From Sipunculus nudus (taxonomy: Eukaryota > Annelida > Sipuncula > Golfingiida > Sipunculidae): 64,000 nt of DNA. The stretch covers positions 96,742,723-96,806,722 of the forward strand of contig CM049309.1 in the NCBI GenBank assembly GCA_026874595.1, in the 5' to 3' direction. The notes under the pieces are model-generated. The model made no database searches. It saw only the letters and a list, made by a program, of their open reading frames with translations, and was not told the origin of the DNA. Positions 1,595 to 42,249 of this stretch are shown one piece after another; the stretch's first letter is position 1, and every line of letters starts with the position of its first letter. The position numbers and the translations under genes were made by a program.

Positions 1595-1742
1595 GGGTCA
1601 TGTTTGCTTAATAGTGAACGTGGCATCAAAATGAGGCTTCACTGATAAAAACTACAAACAACTGCAAGCTATGCACAGTGAGCTTGCAGAATCCAAGGGA
1701 CTCCGGATCCTTGCCTTCCCATGCAACCAGTTTGGGGGCCAG
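1595..1742 (+). CDS. GPX4: GPX4-type selenoprotein glutathione peroxidase, internal exon with the selenocysteine TGA
   Basis: This exon encodes the active-site strand-loop of a glutathione peroxidase, which reduces lipid and other hydroperoxides with glutathione or thiols. Reading from the third base of a split codon gives [12 protein letters not shown], then TGA at 1632-1634, then [11 protein letters not shown], and it ends [14 protein letters not shown]. NVASKxG and FPCNQFG are the family signatures, and TGA falls exactly where Sec (or Cys) sits, so I read it as selenocysteine. The Gln of the catalytic tetrad is the last codon (1740-1742). The acceptor is a T-rich tract ending tcag at 1591-1594; the donor is gtaaaa. 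The exon is 148 nt and ends in phase 0. The split first codon would complete an Arg before Gly-His, as in related proteins. The exon(s) for the N-terminus were not found in 539-1594 and probably lie upstream of the window. Confidence 0.95.
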
Positions 1743-10339: not shown

Positions 10340-10488
10340 GAGCCAGGGTCCAATGAGGAAATCAAAAAGTTCGCCACAGAAAAGTATGGTGTAGAGTTTG
10401 ATATGTTCTCCAAGATAGACGTCAATGGCAATGACGCTCATCCCCTGTACAGCTACCTGAAGATGAAACAGAAGGGTACATTGTTAGA
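10340..10488 (+). CDS. GPX4: GPX4-type glutathione peroxidase, second visible exon
   Basis: This exon continues directly from the previous one. It starts [17 protein letters not shown], passes through [20 protein letters not shown] and ends KMKQKGTLL plus two bases of a split codon. NEEI, FDMFSKI and VNG-DAHPL match the central part of GPX4 proteins. The acceptor is tttcttcag (10331-10339). The donor is gtaagg at 10489, a strong consensus; reading on without splicing meets TAA two bases later, so the splice is required. The exon is 149 nt, entered in phase 0 and left in phase 2. As in other GPX4 proteins, and unlike tetrameric GPX1, there is no long oligomerisation-loop insertion between here and the Trp-Asn exon, so the enzyme is probably monomeric. 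That last point is inference from the family. Confidence 0.94.
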
Positions 10489-12781: not shown

Positions 12782-14909
12782 CCCTATACCCTCCCCATAA
12801 CCCTTATGCTGTTGTGAGGCCGAGTCTAGCTGTGACAACTCGACTCAGTAGGTAATCTGATAATTAGGCTGGTAAGCCTACTCGAGTTGTGACACAAGTG
12901 ATATCAAGGAATGCATCACAGTGTTCTTGCATCAGGTTGCATTCATATTGTGGTAAACGGCCCATAATCTCAATATTATTCCAAGAATAATGAATTAACA
13001 CAGTAATATACATGTGAGGTCACAACCCAAACTGAAACACCGTCTCCATGGACATGGGTCATTTCCTGTATCGCCTGCAAGCTGCTTGCGTCCTGTCACC
13101 CATGCGAGTCATGCTTGTGTTCATGCGGTCATAAATTCAACCAACATGCCGAGGGGCTTACCAACATGCTGGGTTCAAACAACTTTTCCGCTCATGTTTG
13201 GTATTGTTAGAAAGTACACAAAAAATGCTAACAATTGGTCTGGTTTATGTTGATTGACAGTGTTCCTGTAGGCCATGAAGCGTTGTCAGAAATGATGAAA
13301 ATATTTGCATATTCATAAGGCCTTATAATGCAATCCTTAGACATAGATGTAATGACTTTCTGGCGCCAGTGATCTGGTCGTAATGCCAGAGGGTTGATAT
13401 GACGCTAGGCCCAGTCAGGGCAGTGTCAACCTGACAGTCATTCCTGAATTTGAGACATCAAGTCATAATTTCAATGCTGAGCAGACATGAATTGGGTCTC
13501 TTACATTGATATATTACTTTTACTATCACTTTCAATGTCTAATATTACTATTACTATTACCACATTTTACCATCTTTCACTATTACTATAACTTGGTTGT
13601 CTATTACTATTACTGTGACTATTACTTTTACTTATACTGATGGGAGGGTTCTAGACCTTGCACAGCCAACAGTGCTATGAACTAGCACTACAATCACATT
13701 TATAAACTAATATTACAAGTACCTATATCACCAAGTTATACACAGTTTTTCTTATACTTTGTCTGTCATTTATAGAAGGCCTATTTCCACTGGATTTTCC
13801 AAAAAAAAATCTGAAATTACTGAGAAGAATGCAGGTTAATATGCAACAAGTTGAAACTTTTCCATTTGGATACAAACACAAGCCAAACATTGGTAACTTC
13901 ACACTTTTTGTGAAAATCCACTGTTTTATTGAAGAGAGTGGCCATTGCAAGTTGAAATTATTAGATCATTGTATGAACCCTTGAATATAAAAGTAATTTA
14001 ATGCAAGCCCATTGTAATAAGGCCCTTGCATATGTATAAATATTCATTTATATGCATCTTTGTACATTTTTTCTTTATATACATTTCACCTATATTCATT
14101 TTATTGTGCATACTTTAGTTTAATTTCATCTTCCTCTTATTTATATATTAAGATTTTTAGTGTCACCAGAGGTATGATTCATGATTATTGCATATTTTTA
14201 TCTAGTGTCAAAACTGACAAATTAGTCTTTTATACATATTTGTATCAGGAGAGGAATTAATATAGGGCTATGCCCTGTTTCCAAGTCATTATTGATACAT
14301 TCAGTAAAAATGTTTACATCAACTTCTTGGACAGAACTAAACTTGAGTATCCTAGCTTCTGGAACGTGAATGTTCATTTGGGTGTGATGCCATATTTTAT
14401 TCCATTACATTGGACATCTTGAGTGTGGACAAAGAGGTGGTAAATTTTACAATATTGGTAGCATGTATGGCCTATATTCCTCAGGCATGCCCTTTTTCAT
14501 TGCAGTGATTTCTTTTTATCATTTCCCATTATTTCAATCATTTTCATAAAAATTTGTACAGTCTTGTTCTTTAAATTTTGTACATACCAAGATCTAATTG
14601 ATATCAAAATATCAGTTACAAAAAATAATAAAATATTAACAGTCATGTACTTTATATTCTTATACTATATAATCAAATTAATTAATATTGTAAAAATATG
14701 TTCCTCAAATTTTCAAAATATAAATCAACATAATTAAAGATGCTGAAATGTCTGCAAAATTGGTACTGTCAAATAACAGTCAAGTATTAAAAGAATAATT
14801 TTAAAAGAATATGTATATAAGTTACCTAGATAATAATGTGCTTGTACTAGTTTAGTCAAGTGATTGTAGAACTGGAATGAATTTATAGCATTGTACGCTG
14901 CACTAGTTT
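12782..14909. other. GPX4 intron, low-copy stretch with a triplet-like microsatellite
   Basis: No exon, RNA gene or element end recognised. 13505-13640 is an imperfect ATTACT/TATTAC repeat. Open frames at 13014-13253 and 13723-13950 show no domain and no similarity I recognise. Confidence 0.4.
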
Positions 14910-27348: not shown

Positions 27349-27433
27349 TCGTATCAAGTGGAACTTCACAAAGTTTGTTGTGGACAAGAATGGTCAGCCA
27401 GTCAAGCGATATGCACCAACAACAGAACCATTT
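27349..27433 (+). CDS. GPX4: GPX4-type glutathione peroxidase, third visible exon with catalytic Trp-Asn
   Basis: One base completes the Asp codon split from the previous exon, followed by [20 protein letters not shown] and [14 protein letters not shown] is the conserved glutathione peroxidase signature; its Trp (27359-27361) and Asn (27362-27364) are the remaining two tetrad residues, so Sec, Gln, Trp and Asn are all present. The lysine- and arginine-rich tail matches the basic surface GPX4 uses with lipid substrates, according to family knowledge. The acceptor is gtttgtag (27341-27348) and the donor gtgagt at 27434. The exon is 85 nt and ends in phase 0. A Hel-A element ends only 54 bases upstream. 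Confidence 0.94.
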
Positions 27434-37999: not shown

Positions 38000-38825
38000 T
38001 GTATCCGCCAAAACGAAGTTTTTTTACTTTGTTTTTGACCGGGTTCCGCCGCCGCCGCCTTCGTTTCCGGAGAACTCATCTGAGACTACTGGACGGATTT
38101 TTCCAAAACTTACACAAATTATCGGGTCACATGTGAACTGGTGCCTAACCAAGTGACCTTGACCTCTGACCTTTCCCCATTAACCCACATATCTCTGGAA
38201 CAGTTTGACCGATCAGGAAAAAAATTTTACACAAATGTACCCCATGGATAGCTTTATAACATACACAAAAAAAGGTGGCGCCACCTGCTACCATGTTTGC
38301 ACAGTGTCCATCTGTTCATCTGCCTTGGGATAAAATCTCTCATATCTCTGCAGTGGTTTGACTAATTCACCTGAAATTTGGCATGCTTATACATCCTAGA
38401 TAGCTTTCTTGATTTTATGACAGGTGGCGCCACCTACATTCATGCTGCAGACATTAATGCTTATATCTCCGGACTCGTTTGACCAATCAGGAAAAAAATT
38501 TTACACAAATGTAGCCCTTGCATATCTTTATAACATACACAAAAATGATGGCGTCACCTGCAGCCATTTTTGCATAGCATCCATCTGTTTGTCTGCTGTG
38601 GGATAAAATCACTCATATCTCTGCAGTGGTTTGACTTTTCCACATGAAATTTTGCATGTGTATACATCTTGGATAGTTTCTCATTCAAATAACAGGTGGC
38701 GCCACCTACAATCATGTTTATGTGATGTGTGTTTCCCCTTGCCACTCAATCCATGGCTCACTTCACCCGTCCTTCTCTGATTTTGGCGAATACACGTAGT
38801 CGCTTGTCGACTACCCATATGCTAG
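38000..38825 (+). mobile_element. Hel-E Helitron-like element, complete copy
   Basis: Left GTATCCGCCAAAAC (38001-38014) and right TTTTGGCGAATAC (38781-38793) are inverted with one mismatch. Hairpin GTAGTCG (38796-38802)/CGACTAC (38808-38814), 7 nt, CTAG (38822-38825), TT. Three exact GGTGGCGCCACC sites (38274, 38423, 38695) and TGACCTTGACCTCTGACC near 38154. Non-coding. Confidence 0.86.
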
Positions 38826-39013
38826 TTAGCACAATGATATTGTTTGTCCCTCATTCAACCAACAATATATTTGAAAAGATGTTTTTATTATAGCAAATTT
38901 ACTTAATCTTTTATTTCTGTGAAAAAATTAAGCATGTACTGAAAACTCCAATGTACAAAACTTTTTAATAGTTATTCAAGGAATAATCTTGAAGATGCCA
39001 TGTTGTGGCATTA

Positions 39014-40308
39014 TTGTATCCGCCAAAACAGTTTTGCGGATACTATGTTTTCAGCTGCACGCGGCCGCCGCGGCGGCGGCGGTGTCCGGAGAACTCCTCC
39101 GTAACAGCTGGGCAGAACTTTACGAAACCCGGGATTCTGTTAGGGTCACATGTGAACTGCTGCGCCCCGATTTTGTTTTGACCTCTGACCTTTCCTCTGC
39201 GCTCTGCGTCCGTTTGTGCGTCTGTTTCCACACATAAACCCACATATCTCGGGAACCTTTTGACAGATCAGGAAAATTTTTTTGCACAAATGTAGCCCTT
39301 GGAGAGCTTTATAACATACACAAGAAATGGTGGCGCCACCTGCAACCATGTTTGCACAGTGTCCATCTGTTCATCTGCCTTGGGTTAAAATCACTCACAT
39401 CTCTGCAGTGATTTGACTAATTCACCTGAAATTCGGCATGCGTATACATCCTGGATAGCTTTTCTGATTTTGACAGGTGGCGCCACCTACATTCAGGTTT
39501 ATGCTGCAGACATCCAAGCTCATATCTGGGGAACCGTTTGACCGATATGGCCAAAATTTTGCATGTGTATAGGTCTCATGTAGCTCTTTATCATACGCAA
39601 AACTGGTGGCGCCACCTGCAGCCATTTTTGCACAGTTCCCGTCTGGTTGCCATGGGATAAAATCACTCATATCTCTGCAGTGATTTGACTAATTCACCTG
39701 AAATTTGGCATGCGTATACATCCTGGATAGCTTCTCTGATTTTATGACAGGTGGCGCCACCTACATTCAGGTTAACGCTGCAGACATCCAAGCTCATATC
39801 TCGGGAACCGTTTGACCGATTGAGCCAAAATTTTGCATGTGTATAGATCTCACATAGCTCTTTATCATACGCAAAACTGGTGGCGCAACCTGCAGCCATT
39901 TTTGCACAGCTCCCGTCTGTTTGTTTGCCATGGGATAAGATCACTCATATCTCTGCAGTGATTTGACTAATTCACCTGAAATTTGGCATGCGTATACATC
40001 CTGGATAGCTTATCTGATTTTATGACAGGTGGCGCCACCTACATTCACGTTTACGCTGCAGACGTCGAAGCTCATATCTTGGGAACCGTTTGACCGATTG
40101 GGCCAAAATTTTGCATGTGTATAGATCTCACATAGCTCTTTATCATACGCAAAACTGGTGGCGCCACCTGCAGCCATTTTTGCACAGCTCCCGTCTGTTT
40201 GTCTGCCATGGGATAAAATCACTCATATCTCAGCAGTGGTTTGACATATCTGCCTAAAATTTTGCAGGTTTATACATCCCTGACAGCTCTCTTGATTTTA
40301 TGACAGGT
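39014..40308 (+). mobile_element. Hel-E copy with amplified internal units, 3' end lost
   Basis: Left GTATCCGCCAAAAC at 39016-39029. The copy stops without hairpin or CTAG near 40308. Inside, a roughly 275-nt unit repeats (palindromes at 39476, 39750, 40028 and, half a unit away, 39605, a mutated one near 39878, 40157). Confidence 0.78.
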
Positions 40309-40625
40309 ATCCCAAAACATTTACTGTTTTTCTTCATGACAGTCTTGTCAGAGTATTAGTAGTTTTGAAGTCATATATTTAGAACTTTACTCTAACCAAG
40401 TAGGAGGGCCCCTTTCCTCTTAGCTTCTCATATGGTTATATATATGAAAAACATTTCAGTAGAATATTTTGCATATTTTGCTTTTGCTAAAATTTCAAGC
40501 TTCAGCTGAGCGCCATGACCCAATGGTCCCTTGTTTTTATCTGCCTTACCTTGGCTTTGTCTCTATTTTGACATTAAACTACCTGAATGCAGGATTTGAT
40601 TAAGTTTTGTTCTGTTTTCTTTCAG

Positions 40626-40658
40626 TCTATTAAGAAGGATCTGGAGGAGTTTTTCTGA
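40626..40658 (+). CDS. GPX4: GPX4-type glutathione peroxidase, terminal coding exon
   Basis: Ten codons, SIKKDLEEFF, followed by TGA at 40656-40658. They correspond to the short C-terminal helix (in mammals an E-K-D-L stretch ending in aromatic residues). The acceptor is ttttctttcag ending at 40625, and phase 0 matches the preceding exon. This TGA is read as the true stop: it stands at the family's usual C-terminus, and only vertebrate-style termination fits here. The four exons together give about 137 residues of a protein normally near 170 residues without transit peptide, so roughly 30 or more N-terminal residues are outside the window. Confidence 0.9.
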   Translation, partial: SIKKDLEEFF

Positions 40659-40756
40659 CTGGAACAAGGGGAAAGGGTCCAACACAAACTTTAAAAACCA
40701 GGTCATATTGACCTCTTTTTTGTCTTTCTTGTTGGTTTGAAGGATAGATGAATCAT

Positions 40757-40816
40757 GGATGTTATGAAGGCTGACCCAGAAACCAGAACTTGGTAGGGTT
40801 TGCTGGATATCTTCTA
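40757..40816 (+). promoter_or_regulatory. SECIS-like element (form 2 geometry)
   Basis: The SECIS element recruits SECISBP2 and eEFSec so that UGA is read as selenocysteine. The 5' quartet is ATGA (40764-40767) and the 3' quartet GGAT (40805-40808), which fits NGAN. Between them a stem of about nine pairs forms (AG-C-GACCC against GGGTTTGCT, one bulge and one T-T mismatch). The unpaired AA lies at 40780-40782, 12 nt after the quartet, the expected 11-12 nt spacing. Beyond it a mini-stem ACCA (40782-40785)/TGGT (40791-40794) with a 5-nt loop makes this a form 2 apex. The basal helix is present but has two T-T mismatches. Pairing was done by eye. Confidence 0.82.
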
Positions 40817-41257
40817 CTGTGCACCGTTTCCAGTGACTTGTTTAAAGTTTGAACCAAGAGAAAGAGAAAAAGAGAGGAAAATGTGAACCTGGATGTTTGT
40901 ATCATGGAATATTTTAGTTTCTTTTATTTTAATTTTTTTATTAATTCAGTGGTATATATTATATTATACATGTCTTAAGTAACATTATTTGAAACTTTTT
41001 CCAAGTCAAACTTGTCATCAATCAGTGGCTTATATTTTACCAAACACACTTAGCTCTTGGAGTCTGATGTAACATTAGCTAACTTTCTTGATATGGTATA
41101 GATTCATGCCCTTTTGTTAAAAAATTATAGTATAAATGGTATGTCCCAAAGTGTTTTGCCATAATTTATCATTAATTGATTTTCACATTTGAAGTCATAT
41201 TTTTTTTTACATTGACATGGTAATTATACATAAACTTATTCTTCAAACTGAGAAATC

Positions 41258-41267
41258 AATAAATAAA
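41258..41267 (+). terminator. Overlapping poly(A) signals of the GPX4-type gene
   Basis: AATAAA occurs at 41258-41263 and again at 41262-41267. About 15 nt later comes a GT-rich then T-rich run (41281-41296), the usual downstream element, so cleavage near 41275-41285 is likely. Confidence 0.72.
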
Positions 41268-41280
41268 TTGTATATGACCA

Positions 41281-42249
41281 TGTGTGTGCCTTTTTATATA
41301 TTGATACGGGACCCGGTCTCCACCATAATGATATAGAGGAGGGGTTCGGGGATGTCCCCACCTGTATCACATACGGTTGCTGGAAGTGGTGGCTGACAAT
41401 GTTCCAAGACCAGTTTGATGATAGAAGTCTTTATTCAATAGCAAGCGGTCTGGGACAGTCTCTCTCTCTGAGAGAGCCGCCCAGCCTCCCTGAATCTCTC
41501 TGACTCTCAGTGCGCACTACAGATAGTTTTGTTACAGAGCTTTCACGTGACATATGAGACGTACATATCCTTATTTCTGCATTTCCTCATAAAAGCTAAA
41601 CCTTATTGGATGACCCAAAGTAGGTCACAATTACATCAGAGTTATAAGTTGACTTTATAAGTTTTGCCAGATTTTACTGGATGAAAGTATTCTGGAAAAT
41701 CCCAAGTCTGACCTGACATACATCCAGTTATAGACTGACCTACAAGTCATATTTGGAGGACAGTGCTTATATACACATGCGGGGTCTCATAAAATAACAT
41801 GTTTTAATTGTGTTCTACCATTCCCTCATAAAGACTAAACACATAAGTCATTCTGTGACACTATTTCTGTTTGTACAGACTTAAAATAGACCTTAATGGT
41901 TTGGTGTACTGTTCTCTGATTAAACTGGGAGAGAAGCCTATATGTGTGTGACTGGATGACTGGTTGTCGGGTGTCATCAATTATGAGAAGTCATTAATTG
42001 TTCAGTCTGACATGCCTGAAACTGAGCTTAAATTTGTGAAATATGAAATGTGAAATATTCCTTGAAATATGTGTTAAGTCTCAAATATGCACTTTCCTAC
42101 TCCATAACAATATGAATTTACATCTTTTAATAGTTTAATGCAGGAAAACCTATCAAGAATACTACATGAAAACTACTCCTGTATTAATTTAACCATTTAA
42201 AATGGATACTAACCCTTTTCCAGTCTACCTGTTCAGATTTGGCAAAAGT
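41281..42249. other. Downstream of the GPX4 gene; possible LTR-like remnant on the minus strand
   Basis: Read on the minus strand there is a TATATAAG box near 41770, AATAAA near 41435, an end ...TATCA at 41329-41334, and three bases later TGGTGGAGACCGGG (41312-41325), which could be a primer-binding site. No second LTR, gag or pol sequence is visible, so this is only a possibility. The rest is low-copy. Confidence 0.25.

Follow-up and report, generated by a model that had tools for sequence, protein, structure and literature searches.

A GPX4-type glutathione peroxidase gene of Sipunculus nudus with an in-frame TGA at the selenocysteine position and a candidate SECIS element in its 3′ untranslated region

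The window analysed here is a stretch of 64,000 nucleotides from the Sipunculus nudus genome (assembly GCA_026874595.1, contig CM049309.1, positions 96,742,723 to 96,806,722). It carries four exons of a glutathione peroxidase (GPX) gene on the + strand, followed by a 3′ untranslated region (UTR) with a SECIS-like hairpin. In window positions, the features are as follows.

1595 to 1742, + strand: exon with the catalytic TGA (translation; tblastn with human GPX4; genome search with PF00255)
1632 to 1634, + strand: TGA at the catalytic position, putative selenocysteine (Sec) codon (alignment with solved GPX proteins puts it at their catalytic residue)
10340 to 10488, + strand: coding exon of 49 residues plus two bases (tblastn; acceptor and donor read; in phase)
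27349 to 27433, + strand: coding exon with the catalytic Trp-Asn (IKWNFTKF) (tblastn; phase kept on splicing)
40626 to 40658, + strand: last coding exon, SIKKDLEEFF and the terminator TGA at 40656-40658 (C-terminal end aligned with the final residue of the GPX4 chain 7l8m in the PDB)
40659 to 41280, + strand: 3′ UTR (3′ end presumed from the AATAAA at 41258 and 41262)
40754 to 40821, + strand: form 2 SECIS candidate (Rfam RF00031 at 21.6 bits, below the gathering score; fold; only + strand descriptor match in the window)

On translation, the TGA at 1632-1634 lies in the frame of the 148-base exon 1595-1742, between NVASK and GFT. Each of the four exons in the window is preceded by an AG acceptor, and all but the last, which closes with the stop codon, are followed by a GT donor. 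For the second exon 10482 was considered as the donor and replaced by 10488 (gtaagg), phase being kept likewise. A further coding exon of 101 nt, at G000:C4:96727166-96727266, precedes the window start by 15.5 kb; the TGA counted inside this match is intronic and sits at the donor. The gene extends beyond the window and its in-window part is incomplete; an exon with the start codon was looked for and not found. Spliced together, the five exons encode 171 codons and a stop with phase kept throughout, and the known coding part spans about 56 kb. Numbered from the first exon found, the catalytic TGA is codon 47. It is more than a chance occurrence because it is the sole internal stop in 171 codons and falls on the catalytic position. 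A first-pass annotation of the window had placed the TGA exactly at the catalytic site and had described four exons that keep phase. The former is re-derived here by translation and by alignment to solved GPX proteins, and splicing confirms the latter while adding the fifth, upstream exon.

The spliced protein matches PF00255 (GSHPx) at 164.1 bits, against a cut-off of 27, over profile positions 1-108 of 108. The highest scores among PDB entries are those of 2v1m (254 bits) and 2wgr (250 bits), in a near full-length alignment of residues 10-169 with one single-residue gap and none at the catalytic site. We take both entries to be the selenoprotein GPx of Schistosoma mansoni with its Sec replaced; in the deposited proteins Cys or Ser occupies the catalytic position, where the present gene has TGA. 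PDB entries named GPX4 or phospholipid hydroperoxide GPX score 205-219 bits, a range that leaves out de novo designs. Other PDB glutathione peroxidases score 139.5 (GPX7), 128-130 (GPX8), 95 (GPX1), 93 (GPX2) and 85 bits (GPX3), and the NCBIfam gpx7 model gives 163.8 bits, which is short of its cut-off of 207.3. Judged by the PDB scores the protein appears nearer to GPX4 than to GPX1-3 or GPX7/8, and the original assignment to the GPX4 type is borne out by these scores and by PF00255. The catalytic tetrad is complete, with the Sec codon, Gln in FPCNQF, and Trp and Asn in KWNF, the last three being intact as first claimed. In common with animal GPX4, the gene has a Sec codon at an NVAxxU motif, the Gln, Trp and Asn residues and a C-terminus that matches the last residue of 7l8m; no difference in kind from animal GPX4 was found. 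PMC8614756 describes UGA in the NVAxxU motif from Porifera and Ctenophora up to vertebrates and in most animal GPx04. Sec at this motif is usual in animals, and the present gene is thus as expected.

The hairpin in the 3′ UTR has an ATGA core at 40764-40767, an apical AAA, a 4-bp mini-stem and a GA on the 3′ side. Its minimum-energy fold consists of a helix, an unpaired AGAA and the 4-bp mini-stem, as in form 2. The Rfam model SECIS_1 (RF00031) aligns over model positions 1 to 64 with AUGA, AAA and GA in register, and the hairpin differs from the model by non-pairing positions in the helix above the core. This match, at 40754-40821, is the same hairpin as the form 2 candidate proposed in the first-pass annotation at 40757-40816. 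Three Rfam matches fall in 40600-41300, SECIS_1 ranking first with an E of 0.16 over 4227 families, or approximately 4e-5 for the SECIS_1 family alone in 701 bases. The score of 21.6 bits does not reach the Rfam gathering score of 35. No matches were obtained when the whole window was scanned with Rfam at the gathering threshold. SECIS is absent among the 10 matches of a permissive whole-window scan, as expected from the scaling of E with length, 0.16 in 701 bases becoming about 15 in 64 kb. Taken alone, a score of 21.6 would occur by chance many times in a genome this large. The stability of the hairpin is not above that of shuffled sequences (z +0.74; 156 of 200 shuffles at least as stable). 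A descriptor (TGA, helix, apical AA, GA), composed after the candidate was seen, finds one + strand match in the 64 kb window, the candidate itself, and one - strand match at 13177. On the + strand of shuffled sequences it is matched in 20 of 2000 UTR shuffles (1%) and in 0 of 10 whole-window shuffles.

A genome-wide SECIS_1 search, in which the best candidates were scored, lists five matches with E no higher than 10, all under the cut-off, the last at 25.3 bits (E 7.4). The top three of these five, taken for comparison, lie downstream of a thioredoxin reductase-like gene and two deiodinase-like genes. At 34.9, 28.0 and 26.4 bits all three miss the threshold of 35, and the GPX4 element is the weakest of the four compared. 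Scanning the hairpin for SECIS had been set beforehand as a test, and the outcome is mixed but favourable: the hairpin falls under the Rfam cut-off (21.6 against 35), but the same cut-off also rejects all three of the other elements checked. The SECIS_1 model probably misses many SECIS of this genome.

Upstream of the 34.9-bit element lie two exon pieces matching Pyr_redox_dim, one at 20.7 bits (below the cut-off of 25.3) and one at 32.2 bits (above it), and then a C-terminal GCUG followed by TAG, with TGA at the known Sec site. This gene is presumably a thioredoxin reductase, going by the GCUG motif. The 28.0- and 26.4-bit elements each follow a T4_deiodinase frame whose catalytic site has a TGA. 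The genome contains at least 13 deiodinase-like single-exon frames, which cover 173-230 of the 237 PF00837 positions and score 164-222 bits.

Deiodinase-like loci L013 to L025, genome G000: C3:7890680; C3:7903462; C17 (eight places, 9.4-21.6 Mb); C16:59300803; C9:14659589; C9:31101768

These 13 frames were read out of 24 matches, the other 11 being fragments or weaker and left out. Each contains one TGA, located at the catalytic UPPF in 13 of 13. Protein identity among the frames ranges from 36 to 100%; L017 and L018 share 99.2% identical DNA over 3.2 kb and one of them may be a recent or assembly duplicate. Two such deiodinase genes are reported for the species of a mussel paper (PMC8481496). 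Rfam SECIS matches are listed for L013 and L014 only and for 0 of the 11 further deiodinase stretches (L015-L025). With settings slightly relaxed, the descriptor matches the sense strand in 8 of the 13 deiodinase 3′ stretches and the antisense strand in none of them. Since L013 and L014 were picked for their Rfam match, 6 of 11 loci count as independent finds, some of them weak, and at L021 the search started 3′ of the probable true stop. The only Rdx (PF10262) match listed in the genome, at G000:C119:138735-138953, is without TGA and possibly a contaminant. A search with a haemocyanin model has no match here or in the control genomes.

No second GPX4-like copy is present among the 28 matches listed in the genome search, for which the best candidates were scored. 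The other GPX matches, all in the same Pfam family, are a copy with Cys on C4, a C2 cluster at about 30.17-30.20 Mb and a further gene on C2, at 16.78 Mb. The C4 copy (C4:33503183) has Cys at the active site, in contrast to the TGA of the present gene. The C2 cluster is of classical type in look, judged by eye from motif and insert. In three of its stretches (L006, L007 and L010; 30.16-30.20 Mb) an exon ends with the Sec codon in the motif ATY-U-G, and what looks like a donor comes directly after TGAG. Among the five cluster stretches examined (L006-L010), the ATYUG motif was not found in L008 and L009. No Rfam SECIS is listed in these five stretches, outside which the 3′ ends of the genes may fall.

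Two tRNA-Sec genes (RF01852), each with a TCA anticodon, score 80.6 and 79.2 bits, where the cut-off is 47. Of the 52 matches listed, the third, at 47.6 bits, is barely above the cut-off; it stands first among the lower ones and is left out of the count. SepSecS (PF05889) is represented by seven exon matches on C1. Both models also match control genomes, the tRNA-Sec model in 14 of 14 (above cut-off in 5) and the SepSecS model in 3 of 14, one of which is Bacillus subtilis; low scores with either therefore mean little. On the basis of the tRNA-Sec and SepSecS matches, the Sec machinery appears to be represented in the genome.

The best explanation is that this is a gene for a monomeric glutathione peroxidase of the GPX4 (phospholipid hydroperoxide) type and that its UGA at codon 47 would be read as Sec via the 3′ UTR SECIS. 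Direct observation covers the reading frame, exons, tetrad residues and SECIS motif of the gene, and the tRNA-Sec and SepSecS matches in the genome; the probability of this reading, made from sequence, is put at roughly 96%. From what is established of Sec decoding elsewhere, the ribosome would read codon 47 UGA as Sec, the Sec-tRNA(Sec) being delivered by SBP2 and EFSec recruited by the SECIS. Together with Gln, Trp and Asn, the resulting selenol would be expected to form the active site and to reduce lipid hydroperoxides, using glutathione as the reductant. That the in-frame TGA stands for Sec in a GPX4-type gene with a matching SECIS was the central proposal of the first-pass annotation, and it is supported by the frame, the tetrad and the SECIS motif. 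TGA occurs at the known Sec site elsewhere in the genome, namely in the thioredoxin reductase-like gene (GCUG), in 13 of 13 deiodinase-like frames and in three classical GPX exons (ATYUG). The Sec codon is real and correctly read, in an ordinary GPX4 gene. The finding supports annotating the apparent mid-gene stop as Sec and indicates that the animal retains GPX4 as a selenoenzyme; little is learned beyond annotation, because Sec-GPX4 is the usual state in animals. Vertebrate selenoproteins are widely misannotated according to PMC12822975. In line with that account, it is plausible that automatic annotation would call this TGA a stop or the gene a pseudogene.

The TGA could also be a nonsense mutation of a Cys codon in a gene that has recently become a pseudogene. 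It is one base away from both Cys codons, TGT and TGC, and Cys homologues exist in other kingdoms and in some animals (PMC8614756). But the 171 codons bear no other lesion, the splice borders are intact, no second GPX4-like copy that could take over is among the matches listed, and the gene has a SECIS in its 3′ UTR in a genome with matches to the Sec machinery, all of which makes inactivation very improbable. As a single base decides the codon, a true TGT, TGC or TGG may have been misread in sequencing or assembly. This is hardly credible given that a like TGA occupies the Sec site in all 13 deiodinase-like frames and three classical GPX exons, and that a SECIS accompanies the GPX4 gene. Read-through of the TGA with another amino acid, or splicing that removes its exon, has just as slight a chance: a SECIS and tRNA-Sec are present, and the exon at 1595-1742 also carries the catalytic Gln.

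Under the preferred Sec reading of codon 47, the true terminator of the gene is likewise a UGA (40656-40658). It lies 105 nt upstream of the SECIS core, and the Sec codon lies about 480 nt upstream in the spliced mRNA. UGA-to-SECIS distances in mammals are given as 207-5207 nt and the minimal spacing, from one study of Dio1, as 51-111 nt (PMC3316567). At 105 nt, within the 51-111 nt range, the terminator is therefore in a zone where, going by these figures, a SECIS is expected to act poorly. By the same source Dio2 has a second in-frame UGA, and the extension behind that UGA is not conserved (PMC3316567). The terminator of the thioredoxin reductase-like gene is TAG and those of the deiodinase-like frames are TAA or TAG in 12 of 13; L021 probably ends in TGA, after the catalytic site, and a UGA terminator is thus not unique to the GPX4 gene. 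The terminator at 40656-40658 is taken to be an ordinary stop. Occasional decoding of it as Sec too, which would make a second form of GPX4 extended at its C-terminus by U-LEQGERVQHKL, seems very unlikely. Since 105 nt is inside the minimal-spacing range cited, one SECIS could help the codon 47 UGA and just fail the terminator UGA. A UGA terminator so near the SECIS is a small natural test of the spacing rule.

The last intron contains, at 38178-40292, repeats rich in GGTGGCGCCACCT, of which one family is spaced approximately 274-278 nt. Three families can be distinguished, with 3-5 copies each and 63-96% identity to the reference copy. By eye, sequence resembling these repeats is also seen at the window start and in other introns.
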